Assembly (NCBI GenBank): GCA_949285915.1 | Contig: CASDZW010000012.1 | Coordinates: forward strand, 1 to 64,000 | DNA: 64,000 bases | Reading direction: 5' to 3' | From: an uncultured Collinsella sp. | GTDB taxonomy: Bacteria > Actinomycetota > Coriobacteriia > Coriobacteriales > Coriobacteriaceae | Shown: in pieces, positions 36,002 through 40,697 of the stretch | Numbering within the stretch: the first letter of the stretch is position 1 | How the letters are laid out: each line of letters opens with the position of its first letter | Notes under the pieces: model-generated | Databases searched by the model: none | Told to the model about the DNA's origin: nothing | Seen by the model: only the letters and a program-made list of their open reading frames with translations | Made by a program: the position numbers and the translations under genes

Positions 36002-36403
36002 TTAGAGATCGGCCTCCTTGCGGCACATGCCGTCGAGGATGGCGGCGACGAGCGCCAGCACACCGATGAGGGCAGCTGCCACGGGGACATCGGCGCCCAG
36101 ACCGGCGGCGAAGATGGTCAACACCGCGAACACCACTACGAGGATAGCGACGAGGCGGTGGCTGCCGAGGCGGCTCGGCTGGTTGGCGCCGTGGATACCC
36201 ATGACGGCGCAGAAGAAGGTGAGCACGGCACAAACGAGGTAGAGAATGCCGTCGATGTTAGCGACGAGCACGCCGAGGACGCCGGCCTCCTCCTCAGCAA
36301 GGTTGCCGGCGAAGAAGCCGAGGCAGCCGAGGAAGACGGCTACGACTGCCATAACGATCTGCAGTAGGCTCACGATCTTGAGAGCTTTGCGGTTGGTGGA
36401 CAT
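36002..36403 (-). CDS. Small four-span membrane protein
   Basis: 133 residues beginning MSTNRKALKIVSLLQIV, with four hydrophobic helices and no recognised family. AAGGAGG lies upstream of the ATG. It is transcribed away from the solute-binding protein gene and may share its control region. Confidence 0.7.
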   Translation of the reverse strand: MSTNRKALKIVSLLQIVMAVVAVFLGCLGFFAGNLAEEEAGVLGVLVANIDGILYLVCAVLTFFCAVMGIHGANQPSRLGSHRLVAILVVVFAVLTIFAAGLGADVPVAAALIGVLALVAAILDGMCRKEADL

Positions 36404-36496
36404 GGTTGACCTCCTTGATGGCGCCGCAGCGCCGAGCGATGTTCGAACAGTATTGTTCCGGCGTGAAAACGCCTGCCCGTTTTCGGGCAATCCTAA

Positions 36497-36624: not shown

Positions 36625-37485
36625 ATGCAGGACATTTCGAGAAGGGGCTTTATCGGCCTCGCGCTCTCGGGTGCCGTCTGCTTGACGGGGGGACTTGCCG
36701 GTTGCACTGGCGGGGCTCCCGCTGGCAGCGGCTCTAGCGCCCAAGCAACTGTTTCGGCCAGCTCGGATACGCTGCGCGTGGGTGTGCGTGCCGACATCGT
36801 GGGTTTTGGGTACCTGAACGATCAGACGGGCAAGTACTACGGCCTCGAGATTGACATAGCCAATGACCTTGCGGAACGTCTCGGTTACAAGAGCGTGAGC
36901 TTCAGCACGGTCACGCCCGAGAATCGCAAGGATATGCTGCTCGACGGTGATATCGATGCGCTTATTGCGTGCTACTCCATTGCTGAGACGCGCCTCGAGA
37001 ACTTTGATTTCTCGCCCGCCTACTATGACGACGCCATCGTCGCGGTGGTTGAGAATTCGTCGCTGATTGAGTCGATTGACGATCTTCGTGGTTGCACGTT
37101 CGGCTGCATGGGTGGTGCGAACGCGGCACCGTTGCTGAACAACAAGCTGAAAGAGATTGGTTTCTCGGCCGGCACGGACAAGATCTTGGGTGCCGACGAC
37201 GTCGACGTGAAGTTTGATACCTGGCGTCTTGTTCAGTTCCCTTCTTATCAGGAGCTTTCCGATGCGCTTGAGGAGGGAGCGGTTGACGCCATGGTTCTCG
37301 ACGGCGCTATCGCAAAGACGTACATGAATGACGAGCGCTCCATTCTCGACGGTTTTAACGTGGACGAGGTCTCTTACGGCGTTGCGACCGTCAAGGGCTC
37401 CGAGCTCTCCGCGCGCGTCGCGTCTGCAGTTCAGGACATGCTCGACGACGGCACGATCGATGCGCTCGTCGATAAGTGGGACTAG
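36625..37485 (+). CDS. Extracellular solute-binding lipoprotein, family 3
   Basis: 286 residues. The N-terminus SRRGFIGLALSGAV with a lipobox ending AGC marks a lipoprotein, with a twin-arginine-like start. The mature part has LRVGVRADIVGFG, YYGLEIDIANDLAERLG and DALIACYSIAETRLENFDFS, as in amino-acid-binding SBP_bac_3 proteins. No ABC permease or ATPase follows; the next gene, 12 bases on, is the Cache-MscS protein. The lipoprotein may therefore deliver a ligand to a sensor or channel rather than to a transporter. Start chosen after GGGAGGAAGG. Confidence 0.85.
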   Translation: MQDISRRGFIGLALSGAVCLTGGLAGCTGGAPAGSGSSAQATVSASSDTLRVGVRADIVGFGYLNDQTGKYYGLEIDIANDLAERLGYKSVSFSTVTPENRKDMLLDGDIDALIACYSIAETRLENFDFSPAYYDDAIVAVVENSSLIESIDDLRGCTFGCMGGANAAPLLNNKLKEIGFSAGTDKILGADDVDVKFDTWRLVQFPSYQELSDALEEGAVDAMVLDGAIAKTYMNDERSILDGFNVDEVSYGVATVKGSELSARVASAVQDMLDDGTIDALVDKWD

Positions 37486-37497
37486 GGGGCGATTTGT

Positions 37498-40400
37498 GTG
37501 AAGATGTCCAAGAAGCTGACCGTGAAGGTCGGGGCGCTCATCGTTGTCGCGGTTGCGAGCCTCGTCATCATGGCCATCGCGCTCACGGGGATGCAGGGCT
37601 CGCTTACCCGCTCGGGTTACACCGAAGAGATCAAACAGGAGGCCGCGGAGTTGCCGGAGCTTCTGGCCGAGGCCGAGACCGAGACCGCCGACAACACCGA
37701 GCAATATGACGCCATCTACCAGTCCAAGGCAGCTCAGGTCGCTTTCATGGCGCAGAACGAGACCGGGTTTGAGGCCACCGATGCGAAGATGGCAGAGTAT
37801 CGGGAGCTGCTCGGAGTCGACAATGTCATGGTGGTGAACCGCTCTGGCGACATCGTCGCCAAGGCGGAGGCTACCGATGCCGACTTCGCCTACGCGCGTT
37901 TCAACCAGCTGCGTCAGACCTTCGATACCCACCAGCCTTCCGCTGCGGTTGAGATTGACCTCCCTGAGCAGGATTGGCTCGATCGCTATTACGCCGATCG
38001 TATCGATGATGAGACCATGGTCGTGATTGAACAGAATCCTGAGGAGCTTCGCGCACTCGTTGAGCAGTCCGGCTCCATCGCGAGCGTGCTCGGAAACATC
38101 ACGCTCGGCCAGAATGGCTTTGTTTTCGCCGTCTCCGCTCAGGATTACCTGATTGATTATCATCCCGATGAGAATCTGGTGGGTGCCGATGCCATTGACG
38201 CCGGCATCGATGTCGCCGCGCTCGAGGACGGTTCCTTCTCCACCATGACCCTTGACGGCGAGGAGCTGTACTGCGGTGTCACCCTCATCGATGGTACGTA
38301 CTACATCTGTGCCGTGCCCGAGGCTGACATGGCATCTTCGAGTGCCATTACCGTCGGGGTTATCCTTTTCGCGTTCTTTGTGGTTATTGCCGCGGTGACG
38401 CTCTACGGTATTTTTGTCCTGCGTGATGAGGAGTTCCGAGGCGCAGGCAGTGACGTCGCCGACGACGCTGGGAAGGCAGCTTCCGCCCGTCGCATCAACG
38501 CGCGCGTCGCCCCGCGTGCCGCGGTTCTCTGCCTGGTAGGCTTCTTCGCAATTCTCGCGGTGTCGTTCTACATGCAGACGCTGTTCGCGCTGTCCTCTCA
38601 GTCCCTCACCATGAACGAGCGCGTGGCGGATATCGCAGACACTATCGAGCGCACGGAGAGCGCAGCGGATGAGCTCACGGCACAGTATAACGAGCGCTAT
38701 CTCTCCAAGGCCGAGGTCGCTGCTTATATCATCGAGCGAAATCCCTCCCTTGCGACGCGCCCCAAGCTGCAGGAGCTCGCCGACGCACTCCAGATTCAGT
38801 CGGTCTTTGTGTTCAACACCGCCGGTGAGATGACCGCCACCAACTCCAGCTACACCAACTTCACGCTCTCCGAGGACCCCGAGGATCAAAGCTATGAGTT
38901 CCGCAAGCTCCTCCAGGGTGTCGATTCGCTCGTTCAGGAGCCCCAGCCCGACGAAATCTCAGGCGACCTAAAGCAGTACATTGGTGTTACCACCCACAAT
39001 GACGCCGGCGATTTGACGGGCTTCGTGCAGCTGGGCATCCGCTCCAGTCGTCTGGAGAACATGCTCGCAAGTGTTCAGATCGATCATGTCCTCGACGGCG
39101 TCCAGGTGGGCACTGATGGCTTTGCCTTTGCTGTCAATAAGTCTGATGACACCTTTGCCTACTATCCCAATGCCAACACCATTGGCAAGGTCGCAACTGA
39201 ATGCGGGCTCACTGAGGCTCAGCTGCGCGATGGCTTCTCTGACTACATTACGGTGAATGGCGAGACCTACTACGCCTCCGCGACCGAGACCTCGGACTAC
39301 TACATCTTCGTCGCTGGTAGCGAAGGCGCTCTCATGGGCGACCGCGTGCCGCTGACGTTGACGACGGGCGCGATTGCGCTCGTATGCCTGCTCGTGGTAT
39401 TCGGTTTGCTCGTGTGGGATACAGGCGTCGTCGCGGCATCTCCTGCGGAGGAGCGCGCCTCCGACGAGCCGCGCCGTATGATTGAGGTTTCTGTGGGCGA
39501 CCGTCGCGTGCGCACCGAATCCGCGGCAAGCCGCTGGCTCAACCGCTCGTTCCATTGGGACGAGATGACACCTGAGCAGAAGCTGGGTACCGTGCTCAAG
39601 TGCTTCCTGGGGCTGGGCGCTATCCTGGTCGCAATTGCGGTCATCTTCAAGGACTCGATTTTTGAAAAGGGCTCGCTGTTCGCCTATATCCTCGGTGGCG
39701 GCTGGGCGCACGGCCTCAACATCTTTGCGATCACCGCATCCATCATGTTCGCGTGCGTCATCTTGACCATCGTCACCATCATTCAGAAGATCCTGCAGAT
39801 GATCGGTGGCGTGCTCGACGCGCGCGGCCTCACTATCTGCCGCCTAGTGTCGAGCGTAGCCAAATACGGTGCCATGATTGGCATGCTCTACTGGTGCCTG
39901 GCGCTGCTCGGCGTCGATACGGCGACGCTCTTGGCTTCGGCGGGTCTCCTCACCTTCGCGGTGTCTCTCGGCGCGCAGGGCATCGTCTCCGATATCATCG
40001 CGGGTCTTTTCATTATCTTTGAGGGCGAGTTCCGCGTCGGCGATATCATCCAGGTCAGTGGCAACAAAGGCACCGTGATTGAAATCGGCGTGCGCTCGAC
40101 GAAGATCAATGACGGTTCCGGCAACATCCTGGTGTTGCGCAACTCGAGTGTCTCCAACGTGGTCAATATGACCAAGGAGCACAGCTACGCTGCGGTCGAG
40201 GTTGGTATCGAGTACGGCGAGAGCCTGGAGCGTGTGGAGAATATCCTTTCCGAGGAGCTCCCCAACATCAAGAAGCGTCTGCCCGCCATCATCGACGGCC
40301 CGTTCTACAAGGGTGTCACAATGCTTGCGGACAACTCGGTCAACATCAAGATTGTGGCGGAGTGCGCCGAGAAGGATCGCGGCGGTCTTACCAACGACCT

Positions 40401-40611
40401 GAACCGAGAGATGAAGCTGCTCTTCGACAAACACGACATTTCGATTCCGTATCCGCAGGTCGTCATCAACAAGCCCACGGTATTCAAGAAGGCTACCGAG
40501 GCCGAGAAGGCTGCTGCCGACAAGTTCAACGCGGAGCAGAAGGAAGCCATCAAGAATCTGGTGGACGAGGACGAGGATTTCGACGAGTTCAACGACTCCA
40601 ACCGCCACTAA
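37498..40611 (+). CDS. MscS-type channel with two extracellular Cache-like modules
   Basis: 1037 residues, GTG start after TAGGGGG. Order: membrane helix (10-31), extracellular sensor 1 (about 33-285), helix (286-308), helix (342-362), sensor 2 (about 365-635), helix (638-658), then three MscS helices and the pore helix LASAGLLTFAVSLGAQGIVSDIIAG region (about 808-840), followed by the MscS beta domain (GEFRVGDIIQVSGNKGTVIEIG) and vestibule. The two sensor halves are clearly related: YDAIYQSKAAQVAFM and YNERYLSKAEVAAYI, and TLGQNGFVFAV and QVGTDGFAFAV. The C-terminus is acidic. This architecture suggests a ligand-modulated channel, possibly fed by the solute-binding protein beside it. Confidence 0.85.
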   Translation: MKMSKKLTVKVGALIVVAVASLVIMAIALTGMQGSLTRSGYTEEIKQEAAELPELLAEAETETADNTEQYDAIYQSKAAQVAFMAQNETGFEATDAKMAEYRELLGVDNVMVVNRSGDIVAKAEATDADFAYARFNQLRQTFDTHQPSAAVEIDLPEQDWLDRYYADRIDDETMVVIEQNPEELRALVEQSGSIASVLGNITLGQNGFVFAVSAQDYLIDYHPDENLVGADAIDAGIDVAALEDGSFSTMTLDGEELYCGVTLIDGTYYICAVPEADMASSSAITVGVILFAFFVVIAAVTLYGIFVLRDEEFRGAGSDVADDAGKAASARRINARVAPRAAVLCLVGFFAILAVSFYMQTLFALSSQSLTMNERVADIADTIERTESAADELTAQYNERYLSKAEVAAYIIERNPSLATRPKLQELADALQIQSVFVFNTAGEMTATNSSYTNFTLSEDPEDQSYEFRKLLQGVDSLVQEPQPDEISGDLKQYIGVTTHNDAGDLTGFVQLGIRSSRLENMLASVQIDHVLDGVQVGTDGFAFAVNKSDDTFAYYPNANTIGKVATECGLTEAQLRDGFSDYITVNGETYYASATETSDYYIFVAGSEGALMGDRVPLTLTTGAIALVCLLVVFGLLVWDTGVVAASPAEERASDEPRRMIEVSVGDRRVRTESAASRWLNRSFHWDEMTPEQKLGTVLKCFLGLGAILVAIAVIFKDSIFEKGSLFAYILGGGWAHGLNIFAITASIMFACVILTIVTIIQKILQMIGGVLDARGLTICRLVSSVAKYGAMIGMLYWCLALLGVDTATLLASAGLLTFAVSLGAQGIVSDIIAGLFIIFEGEFRVGDIIQVSGNKGTVIEIGVRSTKINDGSGNILVLRNSSVSNVVNMTKEHSYAAVEVGIEYGESLERVENILSEELPNIKKRLPAIIDGPFYKGVTMLADNSVNIKIVAECAEKDRGGLTNDLNREMKLLFDKHDISIPYPQVVINKPTVFKKATEAEKAAADKFNAEQKEAIKNLVDEDEDFDEFNDSNRH

Positions 40612-40660
40612 CGCTGCGCCACGCCACACAGTGCGCTAGGATGACGCAGGCAAGGAGGTG

Positions 40661-40697
40661 CCGGCCCGAAGGCAAGAGGCTTTCGGGCCGGTTTTCT
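40661..40697 (+). terminator. Intrinsic terminator after the MscS gene
   Basis: CCGGCCCGAA (40661-40670) pairs with TTCGGGCCGG (40682-40691), followed by TTTTCTT. Confidence 0.85.

Follow-up and report, generated by a model that had tools for sequence, protein, structure and literature searches.

The window examined here, 64,000 nucleotides of contig CASDZW010000012.1 from an uncultured Collinsella sp., carries two adjacent genes on its + strand. The first (positions 36625-37485) encodes a family 3 solute-binding protein (SBP), a lipoprotein of 286 amino acids that has an SBP_bac_3 domain and a lipobox and is predicted to bind acidic amino acids. The second (37498-40611; GTG start, with an alternative ATG at 37504) encodes a 1037-residue protein in which tandem dCache sensor modules precede an MscS channel. 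The genome to which the window belongs is Collinsella-like, measures 1.88 Mb and is incomplete (82%).

The gene pair and the two parts of the channel

Only 12 nt separate the end of the lipoprotein gene from the start of the channel gene. The TAG stop codon of the SBP gene overlaps the Shine-Dalgarno (SD) sequence AGGGGG of the channel gene (context TAGGGGG, 37483-37489, +), and an intrinsic terminator with a 14-bp stem and a T tail (40660-40692, +) closes the two-gene unit. Of 44 orthologous loci, 31 have TAG as the SBP stop codon, in most cases within TAGG, and 39 have an SD-like motif no more than 14 nt from the stop; in the majority of loci the stop falls within the SD sequence of the channel gene. 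Because the stop codon forms part of the SD sequence, translation of the two genes is probably coupled.

The C-terminal part of the channel protein matches the MS_channel_2nd family (E = 2.2e-15) and, over residues 799-995, MscS structures in the PDB (E down to 2.8e-35). The best of these are 3udc and 3t9n, which we take to be the MscS of T. tengcongensis (TtMscS). Pore and vestibule together occupy residues 783-989, and the TM3 pore helix, the beta domain and the C-terminal vestibule are all present. The transmembrane (TM) helices TM1-TM3 lie at residues ~738-842 (39709-40023, +), and the beta domain and C-terminal alpha/beta vestibule lie at residues 829-983 (39982-40446, +). In TM3, the constriction residues F820 and L824 align with L105 and L109 of E. 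coli MscS and are hydrophobic in all 43 aligned sequences. A conserved cytoplasmic linker (residues 673-691, ESAASRWLNRSFHW..., 39514-39570, +), in which A676, R679, W680 and W687 are invariant, connects the sensor half to the channel half and is a candidate coupling element between the two.

Residues 1-690, the first two thirds of the protein, consist of two homologous TM-dCache-TM units. Profile-profile comparison of residues 1-330 with residues 326-690 (hhalign) aligned 288 columns, the TM helices on either side of the modules among them (probability 99.9, E = 3e-32). By hydropathy, TM segments fall at residues ~11-29, 284-302, 341-359, 621-639, 699-717 and 744-762, followed by the MscS TM2/TM3 region. 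TM helices thus flank each module on both sides, and the modules would lie outside the cell if the N-terminus is cytoplasmic. Module 1 spans residues ~33-283 (37594-38346, +) and module 2 residues ~365-616 (38590-39345, +), the latter immediately preceded by an invariant YMQTLFA (residues 358-364). Invariant residues of module 1 are R134, N136, R163, Y164, Y165 and D170.

Sequence comparisons of the modules gave uneven matches. Pfam dCache_1 scored 35.3 bits with module 2 of the window protein, under the gathering cut-off of 45, and did not match module 1; among 43 orthologues it was matched in module 2 of all 43 and in module 1 of 15, with scores reaching E = 7e-13. A sequence-profile search of the PDB with the modules alone returned weak or spurious matches, and the fold was therefore settled by AlphaFold2 (AF2) models of the single units, built on alignments of 43 sequences (predicted local distance difference test scores, 88.6 and 80.2). 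Foldseek and VIA searches with these models retrieved mainly dCache sensor domains, many of them from amino acid chemoreceptors. Module 1 matches PscC (6mni; Z = 14.8, 203 residues aligned, root mean square deviation [rmsd] 8.8). Module 2 matches 3lif (Foldseek E = 8e-11; VIA Z = 12.8, 175 residues aligned, rmsd 3.9), and its matches also include Mlp37, PctA, DctB and KinD. Whole-domain rmsd values are often 7-9 Å, against ~2-4 Å for single subdomains, and the high values probably stem from a difference in the angle between the two subdomains. As modeled, both modules have the dCache fold. Module 2 also shares 22-29% identity with sensor regions of Clostridia chemoreceptors; these matches were rejected as further channels, the proteins being chemoreceptors and GGDEF proteins.

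An earlier note, written from the sequence alone, had described the same gene order and 12-base gap, two homologous sensor modules bracketed by helices, and a complete C-terminal MscS pore and vestibule. All of these are borne out by the coordinates, the internal duplication and the profile matches, and the Cache-like fold that the note had set beforehand as a check was found in both halves.

Conservation and descent of the pair

When 84,980 species genomes were scanned, 50 loci were retrieved. In all 48 loci in which the upstream region is present, a lipoprotein homologue lies directly upstream of the channel gene. The other two are L053, at a contig edge, and L084, whose 5′ part is missing; L084 is rearranged, lacks both the lipoprotein and the channel N-terminus, and stands beside an aquaporin remnant. 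L083 is also rearranged, and its channel match is partial. Orthologues (44-80% identity) occur in Coriobacteriia, Bifidobacterium panos and Lachnospiraceae. The family is frequent within Coriobacteriia and scarce outside: in a phylum sample 9 of 396 genomes were positive, all in the window's own order, and in a Clostridia-side class sample the single positive among 391 was the query locus's own genome. A weak phylum-level match in genome G387, located in a histidine-kinase region, was rejected as chance.

Presence and absence of the two genes coincide. Among the window genome and 60 relatives, 18 of 61 genomes have the channel, the identical 18 have the lipoprotein, and the remaining genomes carry neither (SBP threshold, >300 bits; the best SBPs in channel-less genomes, which are paralogues, reach at most ~139 bits). 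A tree inferred by maximum likelihood from 44 channel-linked SBPs together with 37 paralogues groups the former in one clade (support 100/98) that spans Actinomycetota and Bacillota and is separate from the paralogues, including ABC-linked SBPs. Lachnospiraceae sequences are nested in the Eggerthellaceae side of this tree, which suggests that the gene pair has been transferred between phyla.

Two loci show gene decay. In L024 (G001:C22:8289-11542) the SBP gene has an in-frame TGA and the channel gene is in three pieces, both apparently decaying together. In L043 (2128-2988, G034:C10) the lipoprotein gene has two in-frame TAG codons and no frameshift, and the adjacent channel gene is intact.

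The constancy of the pairing bears on the role of the sensor modules. Given that dCache domains usually bind ligands directly, the channel could sense small ligands of its own, with the lipoprotein as a separate input or as a ligand concentrator near the channel. The location of the invariant R134, N136, R163, Y165 and D170 in the membrane-distal half of module 1 fits such sensing. The dCache_1AA amino acid motif includes R126 (PctA numbering). Its residues Y121, Y144 and D173, in the same numbering, have been described (PMC11245519). On direct reading of the window protein, however, the R-x-WY motif of dCache_1AA is absent from both modules, and module 2 has no Trp at all, so that the lipoprotein is favored as the reader of amino acids. 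Moreover, a mere helper would not be required in every locus, as the lipoprotein appears to be. We therefore regard own-ligand sensing by the channel as unlikely.

The lipoprotein pocket and neighboring genes

The lipoprotein matches SBP_bac_3 (PF00497) with E = 2.6e-24 (85.9 bits; cut-off, 26.4), and its lipobox, LAGC, ends at Cys27. A Tat-like SRRGF precedes the lipobox in the signal peptide (36625-36705) and suggests Tat export; the motif is not seen in the two Lachnospiraceae orthologues shown (L074 and L086).

In M. tuberculosis GlnH, Asp is contacted by Ser164, Arg169 and Asp250 through its backbone groups and by Arg147, Thr162 and Trp232 through its side chain (PMC6069109). We mapped these positions by spacing and by alignment with PEB1a. 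By spacing, R101, C116, S118, R123, Y208 and D226 of the lipoprotein correspond to GlnH Arg147, Thr162, Ser164, Arg169, Trp232 and Asp250. Five of the six (R101, S118, R123, Y208 and D226) are conserved in 43 or 44 of the 44 channel-linked SBPs, and the Tyr at the Trp232 position is likewise found in PEB1a. The pocket thus appears to keep the Asp/Glu signature of GlnH and PEB1a, except at the Thr162 position. Conservation of residues typical of Asp/Glu binders supports an amino acid ligand, and we infer that it is acidic (L-aspartate, L-glutamate or a close analogue).

None of the 50 orthologous loci yielded an amino acid ABC permease gene, and three of the four other family 3 SBP genes in the window genome have ABC partners. 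One of them belongs to a complete polar amino acid, glutamate-type ABC operon on contig C8 (ATPase, SBP and two permeases), and its pocket is nearly the same as that of the channel-linked SBP, with Thr at the Ser118 position. The channel-linked SBP hence looks like a relative of the binding protein of a glutamate/aspartate importer, with no transporter beside it. For another family 3 SBP gene (L120 5395-6477, G000:C2:18023), a nearby ABC permease homologue was not detected in 12 kb.

The presence of the C8 operon and its related SBP would also fit a lipoprotein that serves an ABC importer encoded elsewhere, with the channel adjacent for joint expression only. Yet an SBP is already encoded in the C8 operon, and the channel-linked SBPs branch apart as a clade of their own and co-occur perfectly with the channel, whereas importer-type SBPs are also found in channel-less genomes. 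We consider this arrangement highly improbable. Alternatively, the lipoprotein might pass its amino acid to the channel as a regulated passage, an uptake or export facilitator rather than a signal-gated valve. The acidic amino acid pocket and the passage of glutamate through MscS-type channels would agree with this. MscS pores, however, are large and non-concentrative, and we know of no precedent for SBP-delivered import via an MscS pore; a passage of this kind seems the remotest of the explanations that we weighed.

Among neighboring genes, a water-type aquaporin gene (MIP family, NPARS motif) stands beside the pair in 16 loci and in three arrangements: divergent upstream in 8 (Olsenella, Atopobiaceae, Enorma and relatives), co-directional upstream in 7 Lachnospiraceae and Ruminococcus-type loci, and downstream in L086. 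In Bifidobacterium panos an aquaporin gene lies 1.6 kb from the pair, and in the window genome one is on another contig. High-scoring aquaporin members occur in 13 of 18 genomes with the channel and in 3 of 43 without it (the 60 relatives and the window genome), a co-occurrence that is suggestive, the counts not being separated from shared ancestry. That aquaporin genes recur beside the pair in more than one gene order suggests an osmotic role.

In the textbook view, MscS channels are valves that respond to membrane tension. Consistent with the osmotic context that the aquaporins suggest and with the complete pore and its hydrophobic constriction, the protein could be an osmotic release valve, tension-gated as MscS is and under little ligand control, its modules and the lipoprotein being mainly structural or wall-contacting. 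Strict conservation of the SBP ligand-pocket residues is unexpected for a structural subunit, and a small ordinary MscS is encoded elsewhere in the same genome. We find a valve of this type distinctly unlikely. Even so, given the recurrent aquaporin neighbors, the pore may still serve osmotic balance, and modulation of a tension valve is as probable as pure ligand gating.

Other neighbors vary. A small divergent membrane protein of 162 amino acids without a Pfam match is encoded directly upstream of the lipoprotein gene (36005-36490, −). In about 11 loci from different families, including L045, L048-L050, L054-L057, L073 and L080, one or two ABC exporter half-transporters (ABC_membrane and ABC_tran) lie directly downstream of the channel. 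Plasmid and phage carriage was looked for and gave no match.

Proposed regulation and comparison with known systems

We propose that the lipoprotein and the channel work as a single dedicated receptor-channel system, which senses external acidic amino acids and responds by modulating an MscS pore, and give this proposal about an even chance of being correct. The membrane-anchored lipoprotein would bind an acidic amino acid outside the cell, close on it and dock on the tandem dCache modules. The contact would be relayed via the TM helices and the cytoplasmic linker to the pore, altering the membrane tension at which it opens or its probability of opening. Release of glutamate and other osmolytes would thereby be matched to outside conditions. 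Glutamate export through MscS-type channels is established (PMC6110860, PMC12541555), and TtMscS, the closest solved pore, is anion-selective (PMC5661003). Should the pore open at high external glutamate, the outcome would be release or signaling; should it close, feedback on loss. The lipoprotein-Cache contact, the gating effect and its direction are conjectured. MscS is a heptamer, and dCache receptors work as dimers. Considering the odd subunit number of the channel, the tandem duplication may provide each subunit with a pseudo-dimer of its own.

Several observations weigh against this proposal. The position of GlnH Thr162, a side-chain contact, is Cys in 35 of the 44 channel-linked SBPs and Thr in 8, and the preferred ligand may therefore differ from plain Asp or Glu. 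Module 1, with invariant polar residues of its own, might bind a different ligand directly. Partial correlations of evolutionary distance are 0.43-0.48 between SBP and modules (given the pore) versus 0.35 between SBP and pore (given the modules); the former is not clearly above the latter and lends no specific support to an SBP-module relation. Finally, about two thirds of the loci, the window among them, have no aquaporin gene next to the pair.

The earlier note had expected the pairing to recur in related genomes and the lipoprotein to lack an ABC partner, and both expectations agree with our counts. It had also suggested gating by an amino acid-like ligand. The ligand part stands on the Asp/Glu pocket residues, while the gating of the pore, direct or through the lipoprotein, found no counterpart in the sequence; between the two routes, the missing dCache motif favors the lipoprotein.

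Extending the proposal to a class of ligand-regulated channels, in which an amino acid-binding lipoprotein acts on the tandem Cache receptors of an MscS pore that works together with an aquaporin, letting gut bacteria tune the release of osmolytes and glutamate to the glutamate or aspartate outside, is a conjecture that we rate slightly below an even chance. If it is true, MscS-type valves can come under chemical control, in a conserved family whose pore is joined to a dedicated binding protein and to Cache domains, the largest class of extracellular sensors in bacteria. An ion-channel output would also be added to SBP-based signaling, whose reported outputs include kinases and chemotaxis. Also at stake is how the release of glutamate by gut bacteria might depend on what surrounds them. 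The parts lend themselves to direct tests, each being small, conserved and found in cultured isolates (Gordonibacter, Eggerthella, Collinsella and Enorma).

In the literature searched, which left most subscription journals outside, we found no description of an MscS protein with Cache, with an SBP or with both. A census of the Cache superfamily lists ion channels only via VWA_N and VGCC_alpha2 (PMC4822843).

The channel shares its pore, hydrophobic constriction, beta domain and vestibule with the MscS superfamily (TtMscS, E. coli MscS, MscK, YbiO and MscCG) and differs from its members in the extra half with two TM-dCache-TM units. To our knowledge, neither Cache domains nor a partner SBP have been reported for any member of the superfamily. 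With dCache_1 chemoreceptors (PctA, Mlp24, PscC and Clostridia methyl-accepting chemotaxis proteins) it shares the fold of both modules, but it has a channel output, tandem copies in one chain and no amino acid motif. In GluR0-type prokaryotic glutamate-receptor channels, a family 3 SBP fold controls an ion channel; in those channels the binding domain and a tetrameric potassium pore are parts of one fused protein, whereas here a separate lipoprotein accompanies an MscS pore.

The closest working precedent, by analogy, is GlnH-GlnX-PknG of mycobacteria and corynebacteria, in which the GlnH lipoprotein and GlnX, with two periplasmic sensor domains, control PknG in response to Asp and Glu (PMC6069109, PMC9769921). 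Both systems encode a family 3 acidic amino acid lipoprotein with a membrane protein and no ABC partner, and in both membrane proteins two extracytoplasmic sensor domains are each bracketed by TM helices. The GlnX domains are all-helical (4HB/CHASE3), in contrast to the alpha/beta dCache modules of the channel (PMC9769921, PMC6069109); we rejected a shared fold since the published GlnX model is all-helical (PMC9769921). GlnX acts through a separate kinase, PknG, whereas the channel protein has no kinase domain and its output is covalently attached. The pair would accordingly represent SBP-receptor signaling with an MscS output, similar to GlnH-GlnX-PknG in logic and different in fold and output.

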